From IMG/VR virus record IMGVR_UViG_3300046515_000113, positions 1-52,233 of that record: a stretch of 52,233 bases of DNA; one strand, given 5' to 3'. Below are positions 3,837 to 42,093 of the stretch, one piece after another. Source of the DNA: a virus. Below the pieces are notes generated by a model. The model searched no databases and was not told the DNA's origin. It worked only from the letters and a program-made list of their open reading frames with translations. Within the stretch, counting starts at the first letter, position 1. The number at the start of each line of letters is the position of its first letter. The position numbers and the translations under genes are program-made.

Positions 3837-4402
3837 GGCGTCAGTCTCTGACCGAGCATTACGTCGGTGACGATTTCCCAGAGCTGCGACGGTGACCACT
3901 GGTACCGGTCGAAGTCGGTGTCAGGCTGAACGCCGTAGGTGCAAGTCGAGTGGGCGCCGTCCGGGTATTCGCCGCGCTTCGCCATGATCGTGGCGACTCG
4001 ACCATCGCCGCCGGGCTCTGTGCGGTGATAGTGGTATGCCCGAGTGTTGTAGTCGTTGCCGGCTTCCACGGTTATCGTTCCATCCGGTATCAGGTGCGCG
4101 CGGCCGTCTGGCGTCCACGGTCTGCCGCCGCCTGGTGTGCGGGCGCCCTCGTGCAGATACAACACGAAGCCGCCTTCGTCGCTGCGCTCCAACTCAAAGC
4201 AGTGATTGATCTGCTTGCCGACGATCACTCGGGAGGTGAAGTTGAAGCGGTGATCGTGGATCGCCGAGTACTTGAAGCAGGCGCGCCGCGGTAGTTCTGG
4301 GTGCCAGACATGAAGCCTTTGGCCGCCTTCCAGCTGGACCTGCACAAAGCCCAGGCCGTGCAGGGTGATCTTGTCGGTCATAACGTCGTCGATGATGCTC
4401 AC
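3833..4402 (-). CDS. Cupin-like protein, tandem paralogue 1
   Basis: First gene of the leftward accessory block, 189 residues. The pattern of His and acidic residues (HVWHPELPRR, AIHDHRFNF, AYHYHRTEPGG) suggests a metal-dependent cupin-type barrel. It is clearly homologous over its whole length to 3193-3759, so this is a recent tandem duplication with retained function or early divergence. A 14-bp palindrome lies upstream at 4419-4432. Function unknown. Confidence 0.7.
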   Translation of the reverse strand: MSIIDDVMTDKITLHGLGFVQVQLEGGQRLHVWHPELPRRACFKYSAIHDHRFNFTSRVIVGKQINHCFELERSDEGGFVLYLHEGARTPGGGRPWTPDGRAHLIPDGTITVEAGNDYNTRAYHYHRTEPGGDGRVATIMAKRGEYPDGAHSTCTYGVQPDTDFDRYQWSPSQLWEIVTDVMLGQRLTP

Positions 4403-4418
4403 GGCAACACTCGTCCTT

Positions 4419-4432
4419 GCCGCTATAGCGGC
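4419..4432. promoter_or_regulatory. 14-bp palindrome between divergent genes
   Basis: GCCGCTATAGCGGC is a perfect palindrome in the 99-bp gap between the leftward cupin-like gene and the rightward SEC-C gene. It could be an operator for either. No second copy was noticed in the window. Confidence 0.35.
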
Positions 4433-4501
4433 TGACTTGATAGTGGTTATTGTTGGAGTGAGCTAGAGTTAATCTATCGGCTCACGAAAAAGGTGTGCGA
4501 C

Positions 4502-5080
4502 ATGGTAATTGGCGTCTTTATGTCTAACTGCTCAAATGGCACTTTAGGAGGAGGGGTTAGCCTTTCGGAAGGGACGGGGTATGTAATCGAGAATTGTCAC
4601 GACATTCAGGCAAACGGACTTCAAGTAAATGTCGGATATGGTAAGCCGAGAAAGCTAGCTGGGCGCAACGCTTTATGTCCTTGTGGATCAGGGAAGAAGT
4701 ACAAAAAATGCCATTTGGGGAAATCTATGTCTACAGCAATTAAATCTTCGAATTCATCAACAACATTCAAAGACACGCTGGCAGTGTCTTCGGGAGATGG
4801 GATAGTTTTAGATAACGATCGTAGTTCTTTCGAAGGCACCAAAATTTTTGCAGGTGTTTCAGAACAGTCTATCAATTCAATTATTACTAGGCTCGGTCTG
4901 CCCGAGAATACTCCGCCAGAACTAGTCCTGGAGGCGGTTAGTGAGATTTCTGCTACGGGGAATGTAAGTATCGTAGAGCGATCACGATTGAAGTCTTGGC
5001 TGTTGTCGGCTGCCAACTTCGACATAGCGGGCTGGGCGGGTGTTGCTCTTGCAATTGCTTCTATGGCTGTTCCGAAGTAA
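4502..5080 (+). CDS. SEC-C motif protein, probable moron
   Basis: The 192-residue protein holds GRNALCPCGSGKKYKKCH at about residues 55-72. This is the SEC-C zinc-binding motif (CxCxSGxxYKxCC/H) known from the SecA C-terminus and many stand-alone proteins. The N-terminal part is Gly/Ser/Asn-rich and the C-terminus ends in a hydrophobic Ala-rich helix (GWAGVALAIASMAV). The start at 4502 has AAAGGTG six bases upstream; a GTG nine bases earlier overlaps that site. It is AT-richer than its neighbours and faces against the surrounding leftward operon, which fits a moron gene. Role unknown; defence or lysogenic conversion is possible. Confidence 0.7.
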   Translation: MVIGVFMSNCSNGTLGGGVSLSEGTGYVIENCHDIQANGLQVNVGYGKPRKLAGRNALCPCGSGKKYKKCHLGKSMSTAIKSSNSSTTFKDTLAVSSGDGIVLDNDRSSFEGTKIFAGVSEQSINSIITRLGLPENTPPELVLEAVSEISATGNVSIVERSRLKSWLLSAANFDIAGWAGVALAIASMAVPK

Positions 5081-5086
5081 AAAAGC

Positions 5087-5587
5087 CTAATTATTATTTT
5101 CAGTGTAGGTGCGCCAAGGCACCTTCACGCCGTTTACGAGGAATCCCCAGTCACCGCGCCACTTGCTGGTGATGAAGAGGGTGATGACGCCGCAGGGTGA
5201 TACCTGGTCGATGCGGTGGTATTCGCCATGGTTGAGGCGGGCGGTATCGCCGGTTGCTCGCCGGCGCCACATGATTTGGCGCTGCTCGATATACCAGCCG
5301 CGCAGGATGATCGTCCGGGCGTTCCATGGGTGATCATGCAGATCCCGGTCTTCATCCGGCCGCATGATGTGGTGGATGCGGAACGACCACGGGCACCACC
5401 AGAGCGCAGGCTTATGCGTCTCCCGGCTGTACGGGTTGAACAGCCACCAGCGGCCCATGTACATCTCGGTGCCGTCGGCGGACATGATGTGCTGATACGG
5501 GGTGAGCTTGGCGCGGGCGATGAGCCATTCTGCGATTGCCTGGCGCGCGAGTACCTTGGCGATGATTCGCCAGAAGAGATTGATCAT
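5087..5587 (-). CDS. Cupin-like phage protein (third member)
   Basis: The 166-residue protein has a basic amphipathic N-terminal helix (INLFWRIIAKVLARQ) and a central His-rich segment (IHHIMRPDEDRDLHDHPW, then LNHGEYHRID). This resembles a cupin metal site. It shares the xHDHx element with the two tandem paralogues but little else. Its start overlaps the stop of the preceding gene (ATGA, 5584-5587). It is probably an enzyme or binding protein of the phage accessory region. Confidence 0.65.
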   Translation of the reverse strand: MINLFWRIIAKVLARQAIAEWLIARAKLTPYQHIMSADGTEMYMGRWWLFNPYSRETHKPALWWCPWSFRIHHIMRPDEDRDLHDHPWNARTIILRGWYIEQRQIMWRRRATGDTARLNHGEYHRIDQVSPCGVITLFITSKWRGDWGFLVNGVKVPWRTYTENNN

Positions 5588-6225
5588 GCTGCCTCCTGCT
5601 GCTGTTCCTGGCGTAGCGCGTGTTGCACCGCTTCAACAACGCGGCGCAGGTAGGTGAATTTGTGGTTTTCTTCGACCGCCTTGCCGTCGAGCGGGTAATG
5701 CCATTCATCGCCGAACAGTTCTGTCAGTAACCTGCTTTGATGCCAGCACTCGTTAGCGCTCTCTATGCCGCGCAGCTCGTCGATGTCGCGCCAAAGCTCT
5801 CGGGCTTCGTCTTTACTCAGCTCGCCCAGCTCCCACTCATGGCGCCCTGTCTGTTGCCGGCGGCGCTGAACGATGCACTTCTTGGCCAGAGCGTGGAGGG
5901 CGTTACCGCTGAACACCGTAGGGCTGATCCCGCGATCCAGGCAGTTGAGGATGTAATGCCAGTCGCAGTCGGCGACAAACTCCGCGACGGTGCGCGGGCC
6001 CATGCCACCCCAGTAGGCGTTCCAGCTGTTGTCCCAGCAGTTGATCGTGATCTTGCCCTGGGCGGTCTGATAGCTCGGGTCGGATTCAGTAGGGCAGTCG
6101 CGGCGGCCGAAGTCCTCGAGGAACACGGTAATCGGGTCAAGCCGCGGTGCGCCGGTGATTACCAGCTTGGTCACAGTCGAGCGCTCGACCTTCAGCGGCT
6201 CAGCGATCTTGTTTTCTGTGGGCAT
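5584..6225 (-). CDS. Conserved phage protein of unknown function
   Basis: The 213-residue protein has a distinctive N-terminal half (KLVITGAPRLDPITVFLEDFG, CPTESDPS, GKITINCWDNSWNAYWGGMG) that I recall from early regions of other proteobacterial phages. The second half is helical and charged. AGGA lies five bases before the start. It is coupled by ATGA to the cupin-like gene downstream. Function not known. Confidence 0.7.
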   Translation of the reverse strand: MPTENKIAEPLKVERSTVTKLVITGAPRLDPITVFLEDFGRRDCPTESDPSYQTAQGKITINCWDNSWNAYWGGMGPRTVAEFVADCDWHYILNCLDRGISPTVFSGNALHALAKKCIVQRRRQQTGRHEWELGELSKDEARELWRDIDELRGIESANECWHQSRLLTELFGDEWHYPLDGKAVEENHKFTYLRRVVEAVQHALRQEQQQEAA

Positions 6226-6270
6226 GGGGCGTCCTATGCCGGGGCATGCCCGGGCGGTGGAGGGGGGGGG

Positions 6271-7887
6271 TCAAAGTTGGTTGAGGATTCGCCGGCCGAT
6301 CCAGCGAACGACGGTGACAGCCTTGCTGTTGCCGATCGCCTTATAGCGTGGGCCGTCCGGGCACTCGCTGGCAGGCTTGCCGCGCCATGGGATGAGCGTG
6401 TAGTCGTCGGTCATTCCCTGGAGGCGTTCGCACTCGCGAGGGATAAGGCGGCGAACGCTCGAACCGCCGATGAGCTGACCTGTCCAGGCGTGTTCGGCCT
6501 TGACGTTTCCATGATTGGCGCCGAGCGTTCCCGATATCTCTGCAACCATAACGGCATGCTGGCTCCCTTGATCAAGGGTGTACATGGGCTCACCAGGCTC
6601 TGCGATTCCGAGTCCATTCTGGTCTTTGCCTCGCGTGGCGTTCTGGATCGCGAGCACAGCATTCTCCGCACCATTATTTCGGCCAAGCGTATGGGCTTGT
6701 TCGTAGCGGACATCGGGATCCTGAGTACCATGGACAACCAAGTGGCTGTGCCCGTGGTTCGCGTCTTGGCCTGAGCAACCCTGAAGTCTCCCGTAACTGG
6801 CATCCAATGTCGCAGTGACGCATGGAATGTCGTCATAGCTATAGCCGCCGGACTTTCTCGAACCGCCCGCTAAGGTCGGCGCCACAACAAAGTGTCCCGC
6901 TGCTGCTCCATCTGGGCGGCCGCCAGCACCGCCGCTGAATGCATGACTGGTGAGAGCACCCGCTACCTCTGGGTGAACGAAGAACGTCTCGCTTTCCATG
7001 TCGAGTCGGGTGTCCTTCGCTGTGAGCGTGGCAGACCGTTCGACCGATCCGCCCAGACTGTGCCCGCCGAACGCCGGCACACCGCAGAACACACCAACCG
7101 CCGGGCCTTCGTCGCCCTCGCAGTTCGGGCAGCCGTACTGCCCTAATGACTCGTCGAAGGTGTATCCGCAACCGCACTGGAGCGCAGGGCCGAAAGGAGC
7201 TGATCCGGTAACGTCTTGCCCCTCGCCTCGGCGCGGCGCAGTATCCCGGCGCACGCCTTCTCGCTCAAAAAGTACCTCGGTGGGATCGAATCCGTCTCGA
7301 GCACTTGCGACAACGAACACACGGCGGCGTCGTTGGGCCAGGCCGAAATATTGGGCGTCCAGGATCCGCCACGCGATTGTTCTTTTGGGTCCATACACAC
7401 AACCAGCGTCCGGCCATTTCTTCCCTGAAGGCTGCAGTTCGCAGTCTTCCCCAGCAAGCGCGCCAAGAAAGCATCCGAAGGCGTTGCCTTTGTCGCTGAG
7501 GACGCCGAGGACGTTTTCCCAGACGATAACGCAGGGCGGCTTTCGCTGGCCTGCTCGAACATAGTCAACTGCATCTGCAAGCTCCACGTATTTGATGGTG
7601 AGGGCGCCGCGCGGGTCGGTGAGGCCTTCGCGCATCCCGGCCACGCTGAACGCTTGGCACGGTGTTCCGCCGACGAGGACGTCGGGCGCGGCGATCTTTC
7701 CGGCCAGCACCTGGGCCCCGAGTTTTGTCATGTCGCCGAGGTTCGGCGTGTTCGGGTAGTGATGGGCCAGCACCGCGCTGGGGAAGGGTTCGATCTCGGC
7801 GAACCATGTGGCGCGCATGCCGAGCGGCTTCCACGCAAGCGTTGCAGCCTCGATGCCAGAGCAGACCGAGCCGTATTCGATTTCCAT
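6271..7887 (-). CDS. C5-cytosine DNA methyltransferase (Dcm type)
   Basis: The 538-residue enzyme has the ordered motifs of a 5-methylcytosine methyltransferase: motif I VCSGIEAATLAW (SAM binding, residues 8-19), motif IV GGTPCQAFS with catalytic Cys77, motif VI ENV (124-126), motif VIII QRRRRVFVVA (185-194), motif IX RRLIPRECERLQG and motif X AIGNSKAV. The long region between VIII and IX is the target-recognition domain and carries a zinc-ribbon-like CxC...CxxC (Cys238/240/253/256). No partner nuclease is nearby, so it probably protects phage DNA from host restriction. The start at 7887 has GAGG seven bases upstream. Confidence 0.95.
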   Translation of the reverse strand: MEIEYGSVCSGIEAATLAWKPLGMRATWFAEIEPFPSAVLAHHYPNTPNLGDMTKLGAQVLAGKIAAPDVLVGGTPCQAFSVAGMREGLTDPRGALTIKYVELADAVDYVRAGQRKPPCVIVWENVLGVLSDKGNAFGCFLGALAGEDCELQPSGKKWPDAGCVYGPKRTIAWRILDAQYFGLAQRRRRVFVVASARDGFDPTEVLFEREGVRRDTAPRRGEGQDVTGSAPFGPALQCGCGYTFDESLGQYGCPNCEGDEGPAVGVFCGVPAFGGHSLGGSVERSATLTAKDTRLDMESETFFVHPEVAGALTSHAFSGGAGGRPDGAAAGHFVVAPTLAGGSRKSGGYSYDDIPCVTATLDASYGRLQGCSGQDANHGHSHLVVHGTQDPDVRYEQAHTLGRNNGAENAVLAIQNATRGKDQNGLGIAEPGEPMYTLDQGSQHAVMVAEISGTLGANHGNVKAEHAWTGQLIGGSSVRRLIPRECERLQGMTDDYTLIPWRGKPASECPDGPRYKAIGNSKAVTVVRWIGRRILNQL

Positions 7888-7963
7888 AGGGGATCCTCGC
7901 CGGCTGGCGTGATTCGTAGAAGTGGGGTATGTATCTCTGAACTCACACTGGCAGGAGGCCGAC

Positions 7964-8152
7964 ATGAGGTTGCAGAGCGATGTAGATGCGCTGGCGGCGA
8001 TCGAAGAAGACGCCAAGGCAATGCTGAAACGGATAGGGCTGCCGGACGACGCGGTGAAGCTGGAGATGGTCGTGTTCCTTCGGGAGGTGATCGACCTGGC
8101 CAGCTACATGGAGTCGAAGCATCGGCTGGTTGAAGCGCCGGCGTTCGTCTGA
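7964..8152 (+). CDS. Small phage protein, divergent from the methyltransferase
   Basis: A 62-residue, mostly helical acidic protein (DALAAIEEDAKAMLKRIG, then MVVFLREVIDLASYME). A strong ribosome site, AGGAGG, lies five bases before the ATG. With the next gene it forms a short rightward unit in an otherwise leftward arm. Function unknown. Confidence 0.6.
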   Translation: MRLQSDVDALAAIEEDAKAMLKRIGLPDDAVKLEMVVFLREVIDLASYMESKHRLVEAPAFV

Positions 8153-8220
8153 GCTGGCGCATTGCCCGCCGTTGCGGTATTTGTGTTCGGCCCGGCATGG
8201 GGCCGGATCAAGGAGTGAAA

Positions 8221-8688
8221 ATGTCAGCTACTGCGGAAATGCTTTTCAATCTTCAGAAATTCCAACTGCTCACGCTTTTTACGAGTGGTCGCCCAGGCAA
8301 AAACATCACACCCGCTTACGCATATGCTTGGGACAATGGCGTTTACCCGATTGGTAATGATGCTGCGTCTTGGCACGAACCCTACAAAGATCAGTTTGTA
8401 ATTAGCGAAGAGCAGGTTTCTGAGTTGGCAGGTTTTCTAGACAAAAAGTGGTTAGAGAAGGAGAAAATCTCGTTTTACGAACTCGAGGATCATTACGATA
8501 TTCAAGGCCTCGCTAGCTCTGGATCAGAGTGGGAGCGGGGAACGCTGATTGACGCTTGCCACTATTTTTATCTGCTTGGCTGGTTTGATGAGGACTTTTG
8601 GACAGGGCTTGTCGGGCATTCAGATTGCCCGTCTGAGTCTCACTCTATCCGGCGCGAGTTCAAACCTGAGGACGTGTATTTCCTTTAA
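8221..8688 (+). CDS. Hypothetical protein, probable moron
   Basis: A 155-residue protein rich in aromatic and acidic residues, with AAGGAG before the ATG at 8221. The segment ISEEQVSELAGFLDKKWLEKEKISFYELEDHY looks like a folded helical domain. The gene is AT-richer than the recombination genes and runs against them. It ends convergently with the next gene in a shared TTAA. No family recognised. Confidence 0.65.
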   Translation: MSATAEMLFNLQKFQLLTLFTSGRPGKNITPAYAYAWDNGVYPIGNDAASWHEPYKDQFVISEEQVSELAGFLDKKWLEKEKISFYELEDHYDIQGLASSGSEWERGTLIDACHYFYLLGWFDEDFWTGLVGHSDCPSESHSIRREFKPEDVYFL

Positions 8689-9041
8689 GGACTTGGGGTG
8701 ATTATTCCATCGCCTGGGTCGGCAGCGAGTTCGGCCATGCTCTTCTCGTAAAATGCTCGCGACACCTTTTCGCTTGGTTCATAAGGTGTCGTGACATTCC
8801 GCAGCATCCAAGCCTGCGTTTCGAGGTCAGCGTCGATCAGGTTCTTCAGCAGCCGCTGGTGAATGTCCTGCTGATTGTTGATGCCGTGCGCTTTCATCAC
8901 CGCCTTCAGGTCAGGCTTGAACACACCCGCGACTTCAACCGTAAACTTCTCGACGCCCAATGCAGCGTCCTTTGCTGCAGCCTTCTCGCGCTTCCTGCGC
9001 TGCTTCTTGGCTTCCTCCGTCAGTTCCTTTTCCTCGGCCAT
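8685..9041 (-). CDS. Hypothetical basic/helical phage protein
   Basis: The 118-residue protein starts with a charged, Lys/Ala-rich helix (EEKELTEEAKKQRRKREKAAAK) and continues with HGINNQQDIHQRLLKNLIDADLETQAWMLRNV, possibly a small DNA-associated fold. AGAGG precedes the start. Inside it lies one of the three 36-bp dyad elements (8758-8793), encoding the stretch TTPYEPSEKVSR. Function unknown. Confidence 0.65.
   Translation of the reverse strand: MAEEKELTEEAKKQRRKREKAAAKDAALGVEKFTVEVAGVFKPDLKAVMKAHGINNQQDIHQRLLKNLIDADLETQAWMLRNVTTPYEPSEKVSRAFYEKSMAELAADPGDGIITPSP
8758..8793. repeat. 36-bp dyad element, copy A
   Basis: Arms CGCGACAC (8758-8765) and GTGTCGTG (8786-8793) are separated by exactly 20 bases, the same geometry as at 18644 and 25054. 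One base in the right arm differs from the perfect complement. It lies inside a coding sequence. Confidence 0.65.
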
Positions 9042-15429: not shown

Positions 15430-15876
15430 TCAAGATGTCGTTTTCTTCTTGCGAACGGGCGATCTGCGCGGAGCGGGTTTACGTGTAGACGGGCGGGGAG
15501 GTGAAAACGGAAAATCAGAAGCGCTAGCACCGAGATATTCAAGGTTCGGCTTGGCCACATTTCTCATATACGGATACAGAAGCAAGGCCACTTCATAGGG
15601 AACGTCGGGAAGTTTCAAGTTATCTACTACAGAAGGCTCAATAATCTGAAACTCTCCGATAATCTTCAAATTGAAAAATATGTCCCCGCCTGCGGCACGT
15701 GTTTCTAGCGTCATGCGCACACTAAACGCATCTCCGGCGCCAAGATCATCAATTGGATTCGCATACTCCACCCCAAGTTTTGCTTCGAATCCCTGATCGT
15801 CTTCTGAATGGCGGAATGCGGAGCCGTTAATGCTCTCGACGGATACCAGGACCAAACGAATATCATTCAGTTTCAT
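15430..15876 (-). CDS. SecB-like chaperone of a TAC module
   Basis: The 148-residue protein has the pattern of SecB-like chaperones tied to toxin-antitoxin systems. A beta-rich core (FSVRMTLETRAAGGDIFFNLKI, GEFQII at 51-80) is followed by the helix ALLLYPYMRNVAKPNLEYLG (97-116) and DFPFSPP. In SecB this region reads LFPYAR...L...G.FP.L...P. The C-terminal 20 residues are very basic (RKPAPRRSPVRKKK), which is unusual. In known TAC systems such as M. tuberculosis HigBA-Rv1957 the chaperone protects the antitoxin from degradation. The start overlaps the hicB stop by ATGA. The family call is by eye. Confidence 0.65.
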   Translation of the reverse strand: MKLNDIRLVLVSVESINGSAFRHSEDDQGFEAKLGVEYANPIDDLGAGDAFSVRMTLETRAAGGDIFFNLKIIGEFQIIEPSVVDNLKLPDVPYEVALLLYPYMRNVAKPNLEYLGASASDFPFSPPRPSTRKPAPRRSPVRKKKTTS

Positions 15877-16319
15877 TGAACGGCTCTCAAAACTACGCGT
15901 TGAGTGGGTCGACGTTCGTGAACAGTGAAGGAAGTTTCATAGCCCTGATGACTTTCGTAGTGATGATGAACCTCTTGATGCCTACCGTTGAGATGGCAAT
16001 CAATGGCTTCTCTAACGAAATCATTGATACTTTTTTCTTCTCGCTGAGCCTGTCGTGCCAAATCTCTATGCAGGGTGGCGCCGATTCGGACGTTGAACGT
16101 TCCGGAGAAAGGCTTATTAGGTGGCAGGCCTAGCTCTTTGCAAGTCTCCAAGTAATCGTCAACCGATTCTTTAAAAGCCTCGTTGAGATCAGTGATGTTA
16201 TCGGCCTCATAGGTGACCAAATCATCGATAAGTAGAATTTTTCCATGGAGGACGCCTGCCTCCAGAGCGAACTCCACAGATCCCTGAAATCCATTATGCT
16301 CAAGAATCTTTTTGCTCAT
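15873..16319 (-). CDS. hicB: HicB-family antitoxin with C-terminal extension
   Basis: The 148-residue protein has the typical HicB layout. A degraded RNase-H-like N-terminal domain (GSVEFALEAGVLHGKILLIDDLVTYEA, residues 13-39) is followed by YLETCKELGLPPNKPFSGTFNVRIGATLHRDLARQA and a ribbon-helix-helix region ending at IDCHL (residue 110). It should bind and neutralise HicA and repress the operon. Residues 111-148 (NGRHQEVHHHYESHQGYETS and on) extend past the usual end. In TAC systems such a tail is the chaperone-addiction segment. It overlaps both neighbours by ATGA. Confidence 0.85.
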   Translation of the reverse strand: MSKKILEHNGFQGSVEFALEAGVLHGKILLIDDLVTYEADNITDLNEAFKESVDDYLETCKELGLPPNKPFSGTFNVRIGATLHRDLARQAQREEKSINDFVREAIDCHLNGRHQEVHHHYESHQGYETSFTVHERRPTQRVVLRAVQ

Positions 16320-16570
16320 GTTAAATGCCCTTGCGCTGTCAAGGCCTCAACAACTGCCTCGATTTGGTAAGCTAGCAATGTGCTATCAGGATGTCGTTTA
16401 TGTAACAAAATCTTGTGCTTACTGATGTTTATGAATTTTTTCCGCGATCCTGCCCCCTCTATTTCGGAATATCCAAAATGTCTGAGGATTTTGACAACGT
16501 CCTCCCACGGAAAATCCTTCGGTGACGGTCTGCGGGTGAACTCATCAATGAGTTTTTGAATCCGGCTCAT
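16316..16570 (-). CDS. hicA: HicA-family mRNA-interferase toxin
   Basis: The 84-residue protein matches small HicA toxins: WEDVVKILRHFGYSEIEGAGSRKKFINI (22-49) followed by LHKRHPDSTLLAYQIEAVVEAL (56-77), with the conserved His-x-x-x-His-Pro box. HicA folds like a double-stranded RNA-binding domain and cleaves mRNA. The toxin-first order is normal for hicAB. The start at 16570 was chosen for family length and GAGG upstream. A longer reading would run through the predicted promoter and operator. Confidence 0.85.
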   Translation of the reverse strand: MSRIQKLIDEFTRRPSPKDFPWEDVVKILRHFGYSEIEGAGSRKKFINISKHKILLHKRHPDSTLLAYQIEAVVEALTAQGHLT

Positions 16571-16595
16571 TGACGATGCCTCGATCCTATCGGAT

Positions 16596-16629
16596 TGCAA
16601 CTATAGTTCAGTTGCACCGAGTGAGGCAA
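16596..16629 (-). promoter_or_regulatory. hicA promoter and operator
   Basis: On the minus strand TTGCCT (16624-16629), an 18-bp spacer and TATAGT (16600-16605) form a promoter upstream of hicA. The inverted repeat TGCAACT (16596-16602) / AGTTGCA (16610-16616) overlaps its -10 element and fits autoregulation by the HicB ribbon-helix-helix domain. The module can thus be expressed separately from cI. Confidence 0.55.
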
Positions 16630-16933: not shown

Positions 16934-17725
16934 CTATAGCATCCCGCCGCGCCACACGACGCGCCCGATGATCCGCACTTCGTTTATCTCGCCGTCTCGC
17001 AAAATCTCGTCGCCATATCGCGCCTTATCCGAGTTGTCGCTACGGATGATCCAACCCTCGATGTCCGACTTCACCAGGCGCTTCACGATCGTGCCTTTGG
17101 TCGTGCTCTGCATGGCGAAGATCTGACCGTCTTTCGGTTCGATCTTCGACTCATCCACCAGCAGCACGTCGCCGTCGTTGATGGTCGGCTCCATGCTGTG
17201 TCCGTTGGCGTAGATCACATCGAGGTGGCGCTGATTGAGGTTGTTTGCGCGCAGCCATGAAGACTTGAACGCCATGACGCCGCGAATCTCTACGTGAGGA
17301 TTGTCATCGCCATCACCGGTTGAGCCGCGCGCAGTGAGTTGCAGTACGCCTGTGTAGCCCGGCTCATTTCTGAGATCGAAGCTCCGTGGCGGTACGCGTT
17401 CGTCATCAGTCTCTCGGTGAGAAGGGCGAGTGTCCGGGAGTGATGCCGCCATCTTTTCGATCTGCGTGGCCAGCGTCGGGCTGATATCAGATACGGGGAC
17501 CTGCAGCGCTTTCGCAAAAACCACAGCAGCGTTAACGCTCAAGGCTGTGCGCCCATTCATAAAGTGGCTCACAGCGCCTTGCGTCACGCCATCGCCCAGT
17601 TCTGCGGCGAGTTTTTCTTGGGTGAGCTTCAGCTCCCCGCGCTTTGCCTGGAAGAGGGATTTCAGACGAGCGCTGTCTTGCAGCTGCCAGTCAGATAACG
17701 GAAGCCGTCGGGAGTCTTTTTTCAT
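16934..17725 (-). CDS. cI: CI-type repressor with S24 peptidase domain
   Basis: The 263-residue protein has an N-terminal XRE helix-turn-helix (LTQEKLAAELGDGVTQGAVSHFMNGR, residues 34-59) and a C-terminal LexA/CI autoproteolysis domain. That domain has Ser177 in NGHSMEPTINDGDVLLVD and Lys215 in GTIVKRL. It should hold lysogeny by binding OL and OR, and cleave itself when RecA is activated. There is no ribosome site before the ATG. TAATAA lies nine bases upstream and may be a -10 element giving a leaderless mRNA, as for lambda cI made from pRM. Confidence 0.95.
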   Translation of the reverse strand: MKKDSRRLPLSDWQLQDSARLKSLFQAKRGELKLTQEKLAAELGDGVTQGAVSHFMNGRTALSVNAAVVFAKALQVPVSDISPTLATQIEKMAASLPDTRPSHRETDDERVPPRSFDLRNEPGYTGVLQLTARGSTGDGDDNPHVEIRGVMAFKSSWLRANNLNQRHLDVIYANGHSMEPTINDGDVLLVDESKIEPKDGQIFAMQSTTKGTIVKRLVKSDIEGWIIRSDNSDKARYGDEILRDGEINEVRIIGRVVWRGGML

Positions 17726-18602: not shown

Positions 18603-19412
18603 ATGCATACCTCTAACCATGATGTACAGGCCCTCAAAAAGCCCGCGACACCTTTTGGTAATACCGAAAACGTGTCGCGACACGCTATGTCTTCTCGCGA
18701 GATTGCCGAACTGGTCGGCTCGCGCCACGACAAGGTCAAACAATCCATCGAACGACTTTCCGCGCGGAACGACGCGAATGGAAATCCGGTGATTGCTCTT
18801 CCCCCAATGGGGGAATACCTCGACAGCCTCGGCCGCAAGGCTTCCGAGTATATGGTCTGCAAGCGCGACAGCTTCGTAGTAGTTGCTCAGCTCAGCCCTG
18901 AATTTACCGCTGCGTTGGTGGACCGCTGGCAGGAGCTGGAAGGGCAGATCGCCCAACCCCGCGAACTCTCCCGCATGGACCTCATTCAGCTCGCTTTCGA
19001 GGCTGAGCAGCAGCGCCTGCAGTTGTCCATTCAGGTCGAAGCCCAGGCCTCGAAGATCCATTCCATGGAGAACCTGTTCAAGGAAGGGATGACGCATACC
19101 CAATTCTGCAAGGGCCTCAATGGGGTCAACGTCATGCAGGTGGGCAAGTTTCTCGAAGGCCGCAACTGGCTCTACAACGAGAGCAAATCCGGCCTGCGCT
19201 TTCGTGTGGCGTCCTACGCCCGCGACAAGTACATGACCGAGCATCAGCACGAAGTCACTCCCCACGGCAAAGAGCCGTTCGTTTCCTTCACGCCAGTCCT
19301 GCTCAAGAAGGGCGCCGTGCGCCTGTACGACCTGTACCTGGCCGGCGAGCTGCCAATGAAGAAGACCTGGGACGGGCTGTTCACCCATGACAAAGCACTG
19401 AGGGCCGCGTAA
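18603..19412 (+). CDS. Rha/KilAC-type phage regulator (antirepressor)
   Basis: The 269-residue protein has an N-terminal Rha-like domain (SSREIAELVGSRHDKVKQSIERL, residues 30-52) and a C-terminal KilAC/Ant-like domain (EGMTHTQFCKGLNGVNVMQVGKFLEGRNWLY, then GAVRLYDLYLAG). Such proteins act as antirepressors or interfere with host regulation. The start at 18603 has GAGG six bases upstream. The stretch encoding KKPATPFGNTENVSRHAMSS contains dyad copy B (18644-18679). It overlaps the next gene by one base. Confidence 0.8.
   Translation: MHTSNHDVQALKKPATPFGNTENVSRHAMSSREIAELVGSRHDKVKQSIERLSARNDANGNPVIALPPMGEYLDSLGRKASEYMVCKRDSFVVVAQLSPEFTAALVDRWQELEGQIAQPRELSRMDLIQLAFEAEQQRLQLSIQVEAQASKIHSMENLFKEGMTHTQFCKGLNGVNVMQVGKFLEGRNWLYNESKSGLRFRVASYARDKYMTEHQHEVTPHGKEPFVSFTPVLLKKGAVRLYDLYLAGELPMKKTWDGLFTHDKALRAA
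18644..18679. repeat. 36-bp dyad element, copy B
   Basis: Arms CGCGACAC (18644-18651) and GTGTCGCG (18672-18679) with a 20-base gap. The right arm is part of a 14-bp palindrome, CGTGTCGCGACACG (18671-18684). It lies inside the antirepressor gene. Confidence 0.7.
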
Positions 19413-36278: not shown

Positions 36279-36764
36279 ATGGCTCTGCAACTGGGCAAGA
36301 AGAAGCCGGCGATCGCCGGTGAGCGCTGGGCGAAGTTCGACGAAGACACCAAGATCCTGCTGGCCAGCATCGACAATCCTGAATATCAAGTAGCACTTGA
36401 GCGCATGCGCCGCCGCATTCAGCGCAATGACGCGCGGTTCGAGGAAGGCCAGGTGGGCGTGATCGCTGGCGAAATGACTGAGCACCAGAACCACGCAATG
36501 CTGCTCAGCCATTTCATCGTGAAGGACTGGGAGGGCGTGCTGGATGCCGACGGCAATCCGATCAAGTACAGCCCGCCCGTAGCTGCTGAGCTGCTGGAAA
36601 ACAACATCGAGTTCTTCGTCTTCGTCCTGCGCGAAGGCGCGCTTGCCGCCAACGATGCTGCCGAAGAGCGGGCTGAGTCAGTGGGAAAGCAGTCGCCCGC
36701 TTCGAGTGGGAGCAAGAGTGGGCCGGGGAAAGCGAAAAGCGCCGGGCGGTCTACTCGCGCCTGA
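36279..36764 (+). CDS. Tail assembly chaperone (G-like)
   Basis: The 161-residue protein (KKKPAIAGERWAKFDEDTKI, EYQVALERMRRRIQRND) is the zero-frame product of a G/GT pair. It sits between tail tube and tape measure. The last 25 residues after the slip site are Ser/Gly/Lys-rich and probably disordered. It should coat the tape measure protein during tail assembly. Confidence 0.8.
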   Translation: MALQLGKKKPAIAGERWAKFDEDTKILLASIDNPEYQVALERMRRRIQRNDARFEEGQVGVIAGEMTEHQNHAMLLSHFIVKDWEGVLDADGNPIKYSPPVAAELLENNIEFFVFVLREGALAANDAAEERAESVGKQSPASSGSKSGPGKAKSAGRSTRA

Positions 36765-37006
36765 AGATGGCGATTCCCGGCGAGCCAGAGAATGACCCGC
36801 TCACCGCCTATCTGCTTAACCTGTACCGGAACGTGTGTCGCGGCCGACGGTACATCGCCGGCATGGCAGGTGCGTTCCCGCTCCCACTGTCGGCGCGTGA
36901 GATCTCCGACTGGCTGGAGTCTCACCCGTCACCTCTGCCGCGCGACGAGATTGATGATGTGATGTTTGCGCTGGATGCGGTGTGCTTGGCCGGTGCCGAC
37001 GAGTGA
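36279..37006 (+). CDS. GT fusion made by -1 frameshift
   Basis: At 36683-36689 the zero frame reads G GGA AAG, the same GGGAAAG heptamer lambda uses. The -1 frame is open from there to 37006 (VARFEWEQEWAGESEKRR, then AIPGEPENDPLTAYLLNLYR), giving a fusion of about 242 residues. The T part contacts the tail tube subunits in lambda. An ATG at 36767 lies in the same frame, but separate translation is unlikely. Confidence 0.8.
36683..36689 (+). promoter_or_regulatory. Programmed -1 frameshift slippery site
   Basis: GGGAAAG in the correct X XXY YYZ register of the G gene, 25 codons before its stop. It allows tandem slippage on G and A codons. Confidence 0.85.
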
Positions 37007-37028
37007 TCTGCGGCCCTCTTCAAGAGGG

Positions 37029-37424
37029 TCACTCCTTGGGGAGTCTCTTGCGGGGCTTAGGGCCTTTTGGAGATGCGGATCCGTCCTGCCATGTATCCAG
37101 AGCCTTCAACATCGCAGCCATTACCGCTTCATTCAGATCCTTTTTTGTGACGGGGCTGTCGTGGTCAAGAGATGCCAGCAACTTTTCTTTCGAAACGCCC
37201 CGAGTGACAGGCGTGGGCTCTGTAGACGGGATATAGAAAGAGTGATCCGGATTTAATCGATCCCTGTCACTGATACCAATTTCGTCCGTATCTCCGACGC
37301 TGCGTTCAAGCCGAGCAACTATTTCAGCGGTAAGAGAGCGCCTGTTCAGCTTGGCTAGCGCTTCAAGCTCATCCTTTAGGGATGCAGGCATACGAAAATT
37401 GACCTGAAGGTCTGCACGGCTCAT
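37029..37424 (-). CDS. Mnt/Arc-type ribbon-helix-helix repressor (leftward)
   Basis: The 131-residue protein starts with ADLQVNFRMPASLKDELEALAKLNRRSLTAEIVARLE, the pattern of Arc/Mnt repressors, followed by a longer C-terminal region. It faces a second Arc-like gene and a BRO/Ant gene across a 120-bp operator region, like mnt in the P22 immI region. It probably represses the antirepressor in the lysogen. The start at 37424 was set by the family's N-terminus. Confidence 0.8.
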   Translation of the reverse strand: MSRADLQVNFRMPASLKDELEALAKLNRRSLTAEIVARLERSVGDTDEIGISDRDRLNPDHSFYIPSTEPTPVTRGVSKEKLLASLDHDSPVTKKDLNEAVMAAMLKALDTWQDGSASPKGPKPRKRLPKE

Positions 37425-37469
37425 TTGGTTGGCGCCTTTCACTAAAAGTAAAACGAGTAAAAGGATGAA

Positions 37470-37527
37470 GCACTTTGCTATAGACGGCAATAAAGCAAAG
37501 TGCTTTAATCCAAACCAAGCAAAGTGC
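37470..37527. promoter_or_regulatory. Operator cluster between the divergent RHH genes
   Basis: GCAAAGTGC occurs at 37495-37503 and 37519-37527 (24 bp apart) and inverted as GCACTTTGC at 37470-37478. The sites flank possible -10 sequences (TATAGA, TATACA). They are the likely binding sites of one or both ribbon-helix-helix repressors. Confidence 0.6.
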
Positions 37528-37545
37528 TATACAAGGAGTGAGCTG

Positions 37546-37701
37546 ATGAGCAGGAAAGATCCGCAGTTCAATTTGAGGTTGCCGGAGGAGGTAAAGGAGT
37601 GGGTAGAGCAAAGCGCGAAGGAGAATTGCCGGTCCCAGACCGCCGAGATTGTTTTCTGGCTGACGGCGGCGAAGAAGCGACAAGAGCAAGCAGCAGCTTG
37701 A
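37546..37701 (+). CDS. Arc-like ribbon-helix-helix repressor (rightward)
   Basis: The 51-residue protein (KDPQFNLRLPEEVKEWVEQSAKENCRSQTAEIVFWL) is close to P22 Arc in size and pattern (strand, helix, RS-x-x-AEI, helix). AAGGAG lies seven bases before the start. It precedes the antirepressor gene, as arc precedes ant in P22, and should moderate its expression. Confidence 0.85.
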   Translation: MSRKDPQFNLRLPEEVKEWVEQSAKENCRSQTAEIVFWLTAAKKRQEQAAA

Positions 37702-37772
37702 AAATGAAGAAGCCCCAGTGCGGGAACACTGAGGCTTCGGAAAACGAGATCAACTTCGAGGAAGAAATCGTC

Positions 37773-38636
37773 ATGTCGAATATTAGCACAGCGGTATCGA
37801 ATGTCATCCCATTCGCCTTCGAGGCAAAAAGTGTCCGTGTCCAGGATATCGGCGGCTCTCCGTGGTTTTGTGTTACCGACGTCTGCAGCATCCTCGGTTA
37901 TTCGAATAGCCGAGACGCAATGGCAAAGCATTGCCGGGAGAAGGGTGTAGCGAAACGCGACACCCTTACATCCAGAGGCAAGCAGGCTCTGACATTCATC
38001 GATGAGGGAAATCTGTATCGGTTGATCATCAAAAGCCGCAAAGAGGAAGCGGTGCGTTTTGAATCTTGGGTCTGCGATGATGTGTTGCCGGCGATCCGCA
38101 AGCACGGACATTACGTCGATCATCACAGCGCCATGGGCGACTTGGTCGGCGCCGTGATCGGCACCAGTGGCGAAAATGTCCTCGATCGCGTGATTGATCA
38201 GAAGGCCTCACCAGTCCCTCATTCGCTTCAGCGCAGTTTCAAGCAGACCATGAAGAGTCGTTTGCGCTCGCGCTTCAATGTGCACCGCACTGCGCTGATT
38301 CCGGCTGAGTGTCTGGCCGACGCGTGCAATTTTGTTGCGGCCTACGCGCTGGAAGGCGAGTGGATCGGTCGTCAAGATACCGAAGGCTTGTTCTTCAGCA
38401 ATCAGGAAGTCGGCCACATTTATTTGCTGATGAGCCGCCACTACTGCCTTCAGGAAGACCGGTCGGCAATTCTGTCTTCGGCGCGAACCCTTGATTCGCG
38501 CGTACTGATGAGGGTGTTCGACCAGATCAACGAGGGGCGAAGTTCTTTCGCCGCGCTTGATGCTCGGAGGTCGGAAATTTACAGCATCTACCGAGCAAAT
38601 GGCTGCTCTCCCGGTGGTTATGCAATTGTTGCTTGA
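37773..38636 (+). CDS. BRO-N family antirepressor
   Basis: The 287-residue protein has a BRO-N domain: VRVQDIGGSPWFCVTDVCSILGYSN, AKHCREKGVAKRDTLTSRGK, LTFIDEGNLYRLIIKSRKEEAVRFESWVCDDVLPAIRKHG (residues 20-115). A C-terminal domain of unknown kind follows. In P22, Ant inactivates c2-type repressors. Here it could act on CI and induce the phage or let superinfecting phage escape immunity. The start at 37773 has GAGGAA nine bases upstream. Confidence 0.85.
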   Translation: MSNISTAVSNVIPFAFEAKSVRVQDIGGSPWFCVTDVCSILGYSNSRDAMAKHCREKGVAKRDTLTSRGKQALTFIDEGNLYRLIIKSRKEEAVRFESWVCDDVLPAIRKHGHYVDHHSAMGDLVGAVIGTSGENVLDRVIDQKASPVPHSLQRSFKQTMKSRLRSRFNVHRTALIPAECLADACNFVAAYALEGEWIGRQDTEGLFFSNQEVGHIYLLMSRHYCLQEDRSAILSSARTLDSRVLMRVFDQINEGRSSFAALDARRSEIYSIYRANGCSPGGYAIVA

Positions 38637-38652
38637 TCTCAACTGAGCTACG

Positions 38653-38674
38653 ACCCTGCACCTGCGGGGTTTTG
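38653..38674 (+). terminator. Terminator after the antirepressor gene
   Basis: ACCCTGC (38653-38659) pairs with GCGGGGT (38664-38670), one G-U, around ACCT, followed by TTTTGG. Confidence 0.6.
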
Positions 38675-38726
38675 GTGCTTCCTGCGGATGGTGGTAGATT
38701 GCTGCCATCAGAAAAAGGAAGTCACC

Positions 38727-39104
38727 ATGCGAACATTATTGAAGGGGCTGCTTTTTGCTTTCGTATCTCAGGGAGCATTTGCAGCATCGAACGCTACTTA
38801 CCTCTCATGTCCTGGCGTCGATAAAAGGGCCGACGATCTTGTCGTCGTGCTTGATCAGCAAGCCGGCACGGCCTCGCTTCAAAGTGGTAAGAGTGGCGAA
38901 GGCCTGAACTTCGTCTCTCCAGCTTCCTTCGGCCCAAAGGAAGTGATGTGGAGATATCAATCTGACCGGTACCCTCGCAAGTTCTCAGTAGATCGGGTTA
39001 GCTTGGTCCTTAAAGTAGAGACAACGAGCACCATGACCGACAAAGTTTATGTTGAGTCATCAACCTGCACGATTGTTAAGCCGCCAAGTGGTGCGAAGTT
39101 TTAG
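38727..39104 (+). CDS. Secreted moron protein
   Basis: The 125-residue protein has a signal peptide (RTLLKGLLFAFVSQGAFA) cut before ASNATY. The mature part holds two Cys (LSCPG and STCTIV) that could form a disulfide. It is AT-richer than the tail genes, has AAGGAAG upstream and is enclosed by two terminators between the immI-like cassette and the tape measure. This suggests a lysogenic-conversion or superinfection-exclusion gene, but its activity is unknown. Confidence 0.7.
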   Translation: MRTLLKGLLFAFVSQGAFAASNATYLSCPGVDKRADDLVVVLDQQAGTASLQSGKSGEGLNFVSPASFGPKEVMWRYQSDRYPRKFSVDRVSLVLKVETTSTMTDKVYVESSTCTIVKPPSGAKF

Positions 39105-39120
39105 AGATATTCCTGATTCG

Positions 39121-39144
39121 AAGCCACCAACTGGTGGCTTTTTT
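39121..39144 (+). terminator. Terminator before the tape measure gene
   Basis: AAGCCACC (39121-39128) pairs perfectly with GGTGGCTT (39133-39140) around AACT, followed by a T-run to 39144. Confidence 0.85.
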
Positions 39145-39162
39145 ATTGCCCGGAGAAAAGTT

Positions 39163-42093
39163 ATGGCGCAAACGTCCCGCTTAGTCCTGGAGATCGATAG
39201 CCGGGATGCGGAAAAGAAAGCAGCGGATACCCGCGTGGCTTTGGAAGAGCTGGAGGCTCTTGGAATTCCAACGCAGCGCGCCATGGCCAAAGCAGCGGCA
39301 GGAATTACTGAGACAGGCAAAAGCGCTGAGGGCGCACGCAGGTCGTACGGCTACTATCGAGATGAGGTCGAGCAACTGCTCGGTCGGCTCGATCCTCTTC
39401 GGAGGAAGCAACAGGATCTGGCGAAGAGCCAGGCTGAATTGGCTGCAGCCTTCAAGAAAGGCGATATCAGTGAGACTGGCTACAAAGAGTTTTCGGGCAT
39501 CATCCGCGACCAGTCAGCGGCAATCACCGCGCAACGGGCCGCTCTCAAAAGCCTGAATGGTGATCTGGGGAGAACTGGCAACACAGCGAAGCAGACGGCA
39601 GCTGCGATGAGAATGCTGCCAGCGCAGTTCAGCGATATCGCCGTTAGCCTGCAGGCCGGCCAGTCTCCGCTTACAGTTTTTTTGCAGCAGGGGTCACAGA
39701 TCAAAGACTCGTTTGGCGGGGTCGGTGCAGCCGCTAAGGCAATGAGCGGATACATTCTCGGCTTGGTAAATCCATACACCGCCGCAGCCGCAGCGGTTGG
39801 TGCGCTGACCCTGGCTTATTACAAGGGGAGCCAAGAGGCAGATGAGTACAACAAGGCCCTAATATTCACCGGTAATGTTGCCGGTACAAGCGCTATGCAG
39901 CTGGCATCGATGGCGCAAAAGGTTAGCGCTACGGTCGGCACTACCGGTGCTGCTGCCGAGGTGCTGGCCAAGCTGGCAGGCAACGGCAAGATTGCCAGTG
40001 GCAGTTTCGAAGAGATCACTGAAGCTGCTCTGCAAATGGAAAAGGCCACCGGCAAGGCTATTGACGAGACGATTGCCGAGTTCGCAAAGATCGCCAAGGA
40101 CCCGGTCGCAGCGGCCAAAGAGCTCAACGACCAGTATCACTTTCTGACAGCAAGTACTTACGCTCAAATCACGGCTCTCAAGGAACAAGGCGACACGATC
40201 GGTGCTACGAAGCTGCTCACCGATACCTACGCAAAAACTATTGAGGAGCGCACCGGCCAGGTAACGCAAAACCTTGGCTTGATCGAGAGCGCTTGGAACA
40301 AAATCAAAGAAGCAGCCAGTGGCGCACTCGACGCCGCGAAGGATATCGGCCGAATTCAGACCTTGGAGCAACAGGCGGAAGTTATCCGACAAAGATTGCA
40401 AACAAACCAAGGGCGGGCCGGGCGAGTGGCCGCGCTCGGGATTGAGACGCGCGATGTCGCGAAAGATCGTGGCGATCTGGCTTTTCTTGAGCTTCAGATT
40501 GACGCAGAGAAAGAGCGTGCCAAATGGGTCGGAACAGTCAGGAAAGAAAACGACCTCTCTATCACTGCACAAGCATCGCTGAACAGTCAGTTAGCGGCGT
40601 CAGCAAGCAACGCCGAAAAGCTGAAGAAGCGACTTGAAGAAATCAATCGTCTTGCCAAGGACGCGAAAGGCGGGACCGGAGGTAAGGTTTACACGGATCT
40701 CGAACTCCAGCAGCTCCGGGATGCTGCAGTAAAACAGTTTGCAGACCCGAAGCCTAAGGCTGTTACTGAAGATGCTGGGCAGCGGATGCTTGACGAAGCC
40801 CGCCAGCGAAATGCTGTTCTTCAGCAACAAAACTCATTGATTGGTTTGCAAGTTGACGGAACGAAGTCCTTGGGGGCCGAAGCCAAAAGACTGCTCGAGC
40901 TTGAACAGCAGATTGCGGACCTGAAGGACAAGAAGACTTTAACGGCTACGCAAAAACAGATACTCGCAATGGCCGATCTGAATCTCGCGCAGCAGAGGCA
41001 GAATGCCGCTCTTGAAAAAGAAAATGAGCTGCGCAAGATCGCAACCGAGGAATTGCAGAAGCTCGCGGCATTCCAGACCAATCTGGCCAGCCAATTGGCA
41101 AAGGCACAGACGGGCCTGGACAACAACCTCGCCGGCATGGGGATGGGCGACCAGCAGCGTCAGCGCTTGCAGGAGCAGCTCAGCATTGAGCAGCAGTACC
41201 AATCGCAGATGGACGCTCTGCAGCAGCAGCGCAACGAGGGGCGCATCAGCGAAAAGCTGTACAGCGAAGAGACTGATGCACTCCGCTCAGCGCTGCAAGC
41301 GCGCCTCGCCATGCAGCAGCAGTACTACACCGATGTGGACAGGGCCCAATCGGACTGGGCGCTCGGTGCTTCTTCGGCATTTCAGACCTACTCGGAGCAG
41401 GCGCGCGATGTCGCCGGCCAGACTCGCAATCTCTTCACCAACGCCTTCAGCAACATGGAAGACGGCATCATCCAGTTCGTGAAGACTGGGAAATTGTCGT
41501 TCAAGGATCTGGCGGACGGCATCATCGCTGACCTGATCCGCATCCAGGTGCGACAGGCGGCGGTGGGCATCTTCGGCACGATCTTCAGCGGGCTGACCGC
41601 CGGTGGCGCTGCTGCCGGCAACGGCCTCGCCGCCGGATCCGCAGGCGCGACGTCCTCCAGTCTCGGAGCATCTGCAGCCGGATACAGCTCGAAGTTCGGT
41701 TTCTCTGACGGCGGCTATACCGGCGACGGCGGCAAGTTCGAGCCGAAGGGCGTTGTGCATGGCGGCGAGTTCGTTGTCCGAAAGGAAGCGGTGAGCCAAC
41801 CAGGCGCTCGGGAGTTCCTCGAGCGCATGAACGCGAACGCCAAAGGGTACGCAGATGGCGGCTACGTTGGCGCGACTGCTGCGGCTTCGACCTCCAACGT
41901 CATCCCAATCTCGTCGGGCTCTTCCGCTGCTCCGGTCATCCAGCAGAGCTTCAGCTTCCAAGGCACGCCAGATGACGCCACCGTCAACATGGTGCGTGAG
42001 GCGGCAATGCAGGGTGCCAAGGGCGGCTATGAGCTGGTCGTGCGCGACCTGAAAATGAACGGAACCATCCGCCAGCTGATCGCGCGGCGCTAA
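39163..42093 (+). CDS. Tail tape measure protein
   Basis: The 976-residue protein has long alpha-helical and coiled-coil stretches and hydrophobic segments near residues 185-230 (GYILGLVNPYTAAAAAVGAL). The C-terminal region has lambda gpH-like motifs (FTNAFSNMEDGIIQFVKTGK, FKDLADGIIADLIRIQVRQA) and ends in a Gly-rich stretch (GGYTGDGGKFEPKGVVHGGE). Tape measure length sets tail length; lambda gpH is of similar size, so a tail of about 150 nm is expected. The start at 39163 has GGAG seven bases upstream. Confidence 0.95.
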   Translation: MAQTSRLVLEIDSRDAEKKAADTRVALEELEALGIPTQRAMAKAAAGITETGKSAEGARRSYGYYRDEVEQLLGRLDPLRRKQQDLAKSQAELAAAFKKGDISETGYKEFSGIIRDQSAAITAQRAALKSLNGDLGRTGNTAKQTAAAMRMLPAQFSDIAVSLQAGQSPLTVFLQQGSQIKDSFGGVGAAAKAMSGYILGLVNPYTAAAAAVGALTLAYYKGSQEADEYNKALIFTGNVAGTSAMQLASMAQKVSATVGTTGAAAEVLAKLAGNGKIASGSFEEITEAALQMEKATGKAIDETIAEFAKIAKDPVAAAKELNDQYHFLTASTYAQITALKEQGDTIGATKLLTDTYAKTIEERTGQVTQNLGLIESAWNKIKEAASGALDAAKDIGRIQTLEQQAEVIRQRLQTNQGRAGRVAALGIETRDVAKDRGDLAFLELQIDAEKERAKWVGTVRKENDLSITAQASLNSQLAASASNAEKLKKRLEEINRLAKDAKGGTGGKVYTDLELQQLRDAAVKQFADPKPKAVTEDAGQRMLDEARQRNAVLQQQNSLIGLQVDGTKSLGAEAKRLLELEQQIADLKDKKTLTATQKQILAMADLNLAQQRQNAALEKENELRKIATEELQKLAAFQTNLASQLAKAQTGLDNNLAGMGMGDQQRQRLQEQLSIEQQYQSQMDALQQQRNEGRISEKLYSEETDALRSALQARLAMQQQYYTDVDRAQSDWALGASSAFQTYSEQARDVAGQTRNLFTNAFSNMEDGIIQFVKTGKLSFKDLADGIIADLIRIQVRQAAVGIFGTIFSGLTAGGAAAGNGLAAGSAGATSSSLGASAAGYSSKFGFSDGGYTGDGGKFEPKGVVHGGEFVVRKEAVSQPGAREFLERMNANAKGYADGGYVGATAAASTSNVIPISSGSSAAPVIQQSFSFQGTPDDATVNMVREAAMQGAKGGYELVVRDLKMNGTIRQLIARR

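Follow-up and report, generated by a model that had tools for sequence, protein, structure and literature searches.

The 52,233-nt virus record IMGVR_UViG_3300046515_000113, analysed here over its full length (the window), belongs to a temperate phage of Pseudomonas type with a siphophage tail operon, and within this operon lies a cassette whose genes (in order, direction and repressor family), repeated operator candidates, location and predicted sar-like RNA, as read from the DNA, support its interpretation as an immI region or "ant moron" of the kind known from phage P22. By analogy with P22, it probably acts as such a moron, in which Ant would be made briefly, would inactivate a CI-type repressor, and would be silenced in lysogens. 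In P22 itself, immI lies within the late operon, flanked by gene 16 and the tailspike gene, and has been named the ant moron (PMC2629481; PMC8022706), so that a cassette of this kind is ordinarily found among virion genes; in P22, Ant is produced briefly on infection and inactivates the repressor, being shut off by Arc, Mnt and an antisense RNA (PMC11016777).

The insert and its junction

The insert occupies positions 37007–39162 and holds four genes, namely a leftward ribbon-helix-helix (RHH) repressor, a rightward Arc-like protein, a Bro-N antirepressor and a secreted moron:

36279–36764, plus strand: tail assembly chaperone, left flank (phrog_313, 1e-34)
36767–37006, plus strand: second tail chaperone ORF, the final conserved gene ahead of the insert (phrog_1189, 1e-26)
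37029–37424, minus strand: mnt-like RHH repressor gene (Pfam Arc, 3e-7; best phage PDB match Mnt, 1mnt)
37546–37701, plus strand: arc-like RHH repressor gene, 51 aa (Pfam Arc, 1.6e-11; PDB Arc, 7e-5)
37773–38636, plus strand: ant antirepressor gene, 287 aa (Bro-N, 7e-23; phrog_245 anti-repressor Ant, 3e-45)
38652–38671, plus strand: terminator-like hairpin with TTTT, 3′ of ant (fold; also after ant in most relatives)
38670–38708, plus strand: promoter-like conserved element 5′ of the moron (27 distinct contexts; 21 contigs)
38727–39104, plus strand: moron, a small protein whose signal peptide was recognised by eye
39120–39141, plus strand: terminator closing the insert (fold)
39163–42093, plus strand: tape measure gene, right flank (phrog_24, 2e-245; TMP_2)

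An earlier, sequence-only reading of this DNA had recognised two divergent RHH repressor genes and a BRO-type antirepressor in the order mnt-arc-ant, in agreement with the Pfam Arc domain now found in both small proteins and Bro-N in the large one. Its flanks were likewise borne out by phrog_313, phrog_1189 and phrog_24, and its span of the insert is exact, the chaperone stop lying at 37006 and the tape measure start at 39163. The genes stand with revised limits: the mnt-like gene runs from 37424 (not 37490) to 37029, the arc-like gene occupies 37546–37701, and ant begins at the ATG at 37773, which agrees with the relatives, the ORF that opens at 37599 overlapping arc.

The same reading held the chaperone and tape measure genes to be normally adjacent, and proposed a comparison with related phages lacking the insert. 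Through the chaperone, 51 IMG/VR relatives were found, 46 of which, together with the window (n = 47), span the junction. Adjacency fails in this group: the inserts are between 36 and 5024 bp long, a single junction is empty (36 bp), and the other 46 hold at least 404 bp. An antirepressor is present in 13/47, the cassette is absent from 34/47, and, in the manner of a late-operon ant moron, other phages carry other genes at the junction or none. Since 46 of the 47 junctions hold an insert, the chaperone-tape measure junction is marked as a moron hotspot in the group. The cassette is moreover dispensable, as phages with a closely similar CI and no ant exist (L038, L051, L063).

Terminators and promoter-like sequences were found, at the sequence level, within the insert, and as the cassette ends in a predicted terminator of its own, it could work apart from late tail transcription. 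Near-identity searches of the phage collection and of plasmids gave no match. The moron matched nothing in Pfam, PHROG or NCBIfam, and a homologue search of viral contigs found none; L016 and L020 have an ORF 63% identical to it at the corresponding junction.

The element of about 38 bp at 38670–38708, TTTTGGTGCTTCCTGCGGATGGTGGTAGATTGCTGCCAT, recurs near-identically before unrelated morons, among them those of L007–L011, L028, L038, L046, L054 and others, mostly 370–730 bp 5′ of the tape measure gene, and is perhaps a moron promoter that doubles as a recombination seam. L012 carries, at 3952–9025, tandem cassettes (XRE-RHH-Bro-Rha, then RHH-RHH-Bro) after the gene downstream of its major-tail-protein relative. 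A conserved protein of about 191 aa (MSMELLNLRVTGTSPLMMHSDKLANP...) follows ant in longer inserts (L047, 9011–9586; L037, 8645–9253; L054, 8806–9381).

Repressors, candidate operators and the predicted sar-like RNA

As in P22 immI, a leftward RHH repressor diverges from a rightward small RHH protein followed by ant. Both small proteins exceed the Pfam cut-off for the Arc-type RHH domain and, against solved phage repressors, the leftward one matches Mnt (1mnt, E = 0.025) better than Arc (0.57), while the rightward one matches Arc (7e-5) better than Mnt (7e-4). The C-terminal tetramerisation domain of Mnt, PF11423, is present in P22 Mnt and gave no Pfam match in the mnt-like protein. Given this, and the Bro-N head of Ant, the cassette resembles immI without being its strict orthologue. 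The control elements between and within these genes are:

37469–37479, no strand assigned: operator candidate 1, AGCACTTTGCT (repeat count)
37481–37486, plus strand: predicted arc-ant promoter, −35 TAGACG, 17-nt spacer (sequence)
37494–37504, no strand assigned: operator candidate 2, AGCAAAGTGCT, within the promoter spacer (repeat count, shuffles)
37504–37509, plus strand: predicted arc-ant promoter, −10 TTTAAT (sequence, by eye)
37518–37528, no strand assigned: operator candidate 3, AGCAAAGTGCT, close to the transcript start (repeat count, shuffles)
37702–37772 (about), minus strand: predicted sar-like antisense RNA (Rfam RF00262 sar, fold, covariation)
37709–37738, minus strand: terminator hairpin of the sar-like RNA (13-bp stem; covariation)
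37780–37807, minus strand: promoter of the sar-like RNA inside the ant start, ATGACA-16-TAATAT with TGn (sequence; place kept in relatives)

The divergent intergenic region of 121 nt contains AGCANNNTGCT three times, at 37469, 37494 and 37518, a pattern which occurs six times in the whole window against 1.0 expected; in 1000 shuffles of the intergenic DNA, three copies of any 10-mer were never reached. The stretch 37470–37527, to which repressor binding had been assigned from the sequence alone, is thus real as a repeat-bearing site. Around the first candidate, a 16-nt stretch at 37467 is identical in 14 of its 16 positions to the P22 O-arc GAAGCACTCTACTATA, where 500 shuffles gave 12 at most. 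One candidate lies upstream of the candidate promoter TAGACG-17-TTTAAT, one inside it and one just past it, and repeated candidate operators at the arc-ant promoter are a feature of P22 immI as well. In L011, L031 and phage UFJF_PfDIW6 the intergenic DNA differs, yet repeated TGCATCACCGT-type sites, by eye, again flank a promoter, here a better candidate (TTGACG-17-TATATT in L011 and TTGACA-17-TATACC in UFJF_PfDIW6, in the corresponding place).

The sequence-only reading overlooked an antisense RNA between arc and ant. The minus strand, from 37772 to 37705, matches Rfam sar over the full length of the model with 29.6 bits (E = 0.0034); this is the top Rfam score there, and it falls short of the 43 bits required for gathering. 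Rfam matches other than sar were judged to be chance. The predicted RNA folds with a z-score of −5.6, and its hairpin has a T-rich tail on the minus strand. Across 27 sar-like sequences, P22 included, 94.8% of the stem cells are paired and 45 show double changes, against 14.1 when shuffled, and pairing falls to 50–61% in a slid control with the partner shifted by one column. Four relatives match the model in the same slot with 24–30 bits, UFJF_PfDIW6 with 37.4 bits (E = 2e-5), and PhiR12_5 with 69.4 bits, above the Rfam cut-off. In P22, the first base of sar adjoins the start codon of ant and its end lies at the stop codon of arc, and the match in the window takes the same slot.

As regards its promoter, 37 cassettes were scored over the opening 60 nt of ant, and in 34 of them, among these P22, the best minus-strand candidate is an extended −10 whose end falls near nt 5–8 of ant; as TGn was scored as a bonus, no shuffled control was used and related leaders are not independent, this count speaks of constancy of place and not of a probability. 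Its −35 is built from differing DNA (ATGACA, TTGAAC, TTTGCG). In position, hairpin and promoter, the predicted sar-like RNA between arc and ant is therefore as in P22 immI.

The arc-ant interval occurs in 18 of 399 genomes, in Pseudomonas prophages. In L151 and L154, roughly 1.5 kb inside each locus, the sar-like leader precedes an ORF of about 103 aa that matches no Ant profile, and the arc/sar control block may there drive genes other than ant.

Modules of Ant and the CI repressor

Ant belongs to phrog_245, the family matched by P22 Ant too, and comparison with the relatives divides it into three parts, considered here with the other immunity genes:

37815–38123, plus strand: ant head, exchangeable N-terminal domain, Bro-N (9–43% identical in L008–L011, the remainder at least 91%)
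38124–38387, plus strand: ant C1, shared middle domain (comparison of relatives)
38388–38633, plus strand: ant C2, C-terminal segment of about 85 residues, covarying with CI type (CI/C2 association)
16934–17725, minus strand: repressor of CI type that carries an S24 peptidase domain, the presumed Ant target (Pfam)
18603–19412, plus strand: second antirepressor-type gene, Rha with weak ANT/KilAC (Phage_pRha, 3e-10; ANT, 0.0012)

The P22-type domains P22_AR_N and P22_AR_C were not met in Ant of the window, whose head is Bro-N according to Pfam. An AlphaFold model of the protein (pLDDT 71, pTM 0.40) had no PDB match at E ≤ 0.001; its head has only a weak likeness to the N-terminal domain of granulovirus Orf22 and to Ski/Dachshund folds. 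Sister cassettes exchange this head: the C-terminal 170 residues are at least 91% identical among the window, L007, L009, L010 and L011, and L008, L009, L010, L028 and L032 share the arc-ant spacer at 100% identity, although their heads are only 10–43% identical to that of the window. The heads are Bro-N subtypes 31–43% identical to that of the window (L008–L010), Rha (L011), or P22_AR_N (L028–L032), so that sister cassettes sharing the control DNA encode a true P22_AR_N antirepressor, the domain being found in L028 and L031.

The CI-type immunity region presumed in the earlier reading is confirmed by the S24-type CI at 17725–16934 (Pfam). The Rha/KilAC-type antirepressor it placed at 18603 holds as regards Rha (Phage_pRha, 3e-10), while the ANT match of 0.0012 lies under the cut-off. 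Beside the CI gene, at 15873–16600, a HicB-domain protein (Pfam, 3e-19) follows a small ORF that looks HicA-like by eye, and the two form a probable HicAB toxin-antitoxin pair.

The similarity of each part of Ant to its counterparts was compared with that of CI in 22 cassettes with an identified CI-type ORF (Mantel, 2000 shuffles; n = 19 after dereplication), the CI of genome loci being taken as the best S24-type ORF 13–33 kb upstream, which might at times belong to another element. In these correlations, which leave shared ancestry in, C2 follows CI (Pearson r = 0.60, 0/2000 shuffles; dereplicated 0.415, p = 0.001), the head does not (0.07, p = 0.18; dereplicated 0.115, p = 0.15), and C1 is intermediate (0.35, p < 0.001; dereplicated 0.09, p = 0.08); by rank correlation the association of C2 is weaker (0.23, p = 0.0025; dereplicated 0.155, p = 0.03). 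Head and C2, being parts of one gene, serve as an internal control for ancestry. C2 of type I is found in 6/6 CI-A phages (one of which, L153, derives from a host genome, its head being different) as against 1/17 others (Fisher, 7e-5). The CI-type ORF and ant occupy opposite strands in the genome loci, just as they do in the window, an arrangement in favour of their belonging to one prophage. The test on 22 supersedes an initial association of Ant with CI (p = 0.018), which covered just eight phages, too few to rely on.

These data suggest an antirepressor assembled from swappable parts, of which the tail end alone tracks the main repressor. To our knowledge, the recognition of repressors by antirepressors is an open matter for most phages. 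It is possible, and we propose it tentatively, that one conserved control block (arc, the sar-like RNA and the ant leader) drives freely swapped heads (Bro-N, Rha, P22_AR_N), and that the last 85 residues or so, matched to the phage's own CI, would set target specificity. If it is C2 that matches CI, and if heads can be exchanged, specificity becomes testable by simple swaps between sequenced sister cassettes.

Proposed function of the cassette and its known relatives

The sequence of events can be sketched from P22, the analogy supplying repressor binding, RNA synthesis, CI inactivation and timing. On infection, the arc-ant promoter would fire ahead of the build-up of repressor, and a short burst of Ant would inactivate a CI-type repressor, the phage's own CI (17725–16934) being the likeliest target, through the C-terminal segment of Ant. 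Arc would next shut the arc-ant promoter, the sar-like antisense RNA would cover the ribosome site of ant, and the Mnt-like protein would keep ant off in the lysogen.

An immI-type switch could also be conceived in which Ant acts in trans on repressors encoded by other prophages resident in the cell, its variable head picking the target and the phage's own CI not being the object. Trans-acting antirepressors are known from the Gifsy phages (PMC3121763), and a head frequently swapped while the remainder is kept is what target diversification would lead one to expect; however, it is the C-terminal segment and not the head that tracks CI, which fits recognition of the own CI, and we regard action in trans as rather unlikely.

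RHH and Xre proteins often serve as antitoxins. In L037, L053 and L054 an XRE repressor occupies the place of the Mnt-like gene, and BRO proteins are mentioned in a survey of toxin-antitoxin systems (PMC2701414), all of which could point to a toxin-antitoxin-like pair of an RHH or Xre antitoxin with a BRO protein, stabilising the prophage and forming no antirepressor switch. This is very improbable, because a divergent repressor, a small Arc and an antisense RNA whose end lies at the start of ant make up the control layout of P22, kept with P22_AR_N heads too. Hardly credible, finally, is a decaying passenger, functionless in this phage and kept only by chance: all frames are open, the arc-ant spacer and both control proteins are highly conserved, and the antisense promoter is kept through changes, against which stand the absence of the cassette from the 34 homologous junctions and the degraded ant morons of P22-like phages (PMC2629481).

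Considered as an immI-type ant moron, the cassette has in common with P22 immI (mnt-arc-sar-ant) the divergent mnt/arc genes, the arc-ant operon, candidate operators at the promoter, a predicted antisense RNA between arc and ant, and a late operon location beside a tail gene. It differs from it in the siphophage tail operon of Pseudomonas type, the Bro-N head, the lack of the Mnt C-terminal domain in the Mnt-like protein, the three copies of the candidate operator and the chaperone-tape measure site.

Comparable cassettes are already known in named phages: (i) Pseudomonas phage UFJF_PfDIW6 (NC_070881), with arc/arc/ant, has two diverging Arc genes, a 70-nt gap with a sar match, and then ant, but a P22-type Ant head, a site after the tail spike and before the integrase, and other operator repeats; (ii) Pseudomonas phage Medea1 (NC_074658) has, between tail genes K and I, a repressor, an Arc-like protein and an antirepressor, with Ant residues 121–201 80% identical, but an HTH repressor instead of Mnt, a Rha head and another junction; (iii) Escherichia phage PhiR12_5 (PV340554) has immI-like genes and sar within its tail-tip genes, between L and K, but is a coliphage with lambda-type tail genes and another junction, its Ant being only 33% identical. 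In prophage 06 of Pseudomonas fluorescens Pf-5 (PMC2647930), the tail module is split by four extra genes and there are two putative antirepressors, a likeness at the level of the description, the published passage making no mention of mnt, arc or sar. In the open literature no description was found of a sar-like RNA in Pseudomonas phages, or of head/C2 modularity with CI matching; the cassette would extend sar-type antisense control from P22-like phages to the prophages of Pseudomonas.
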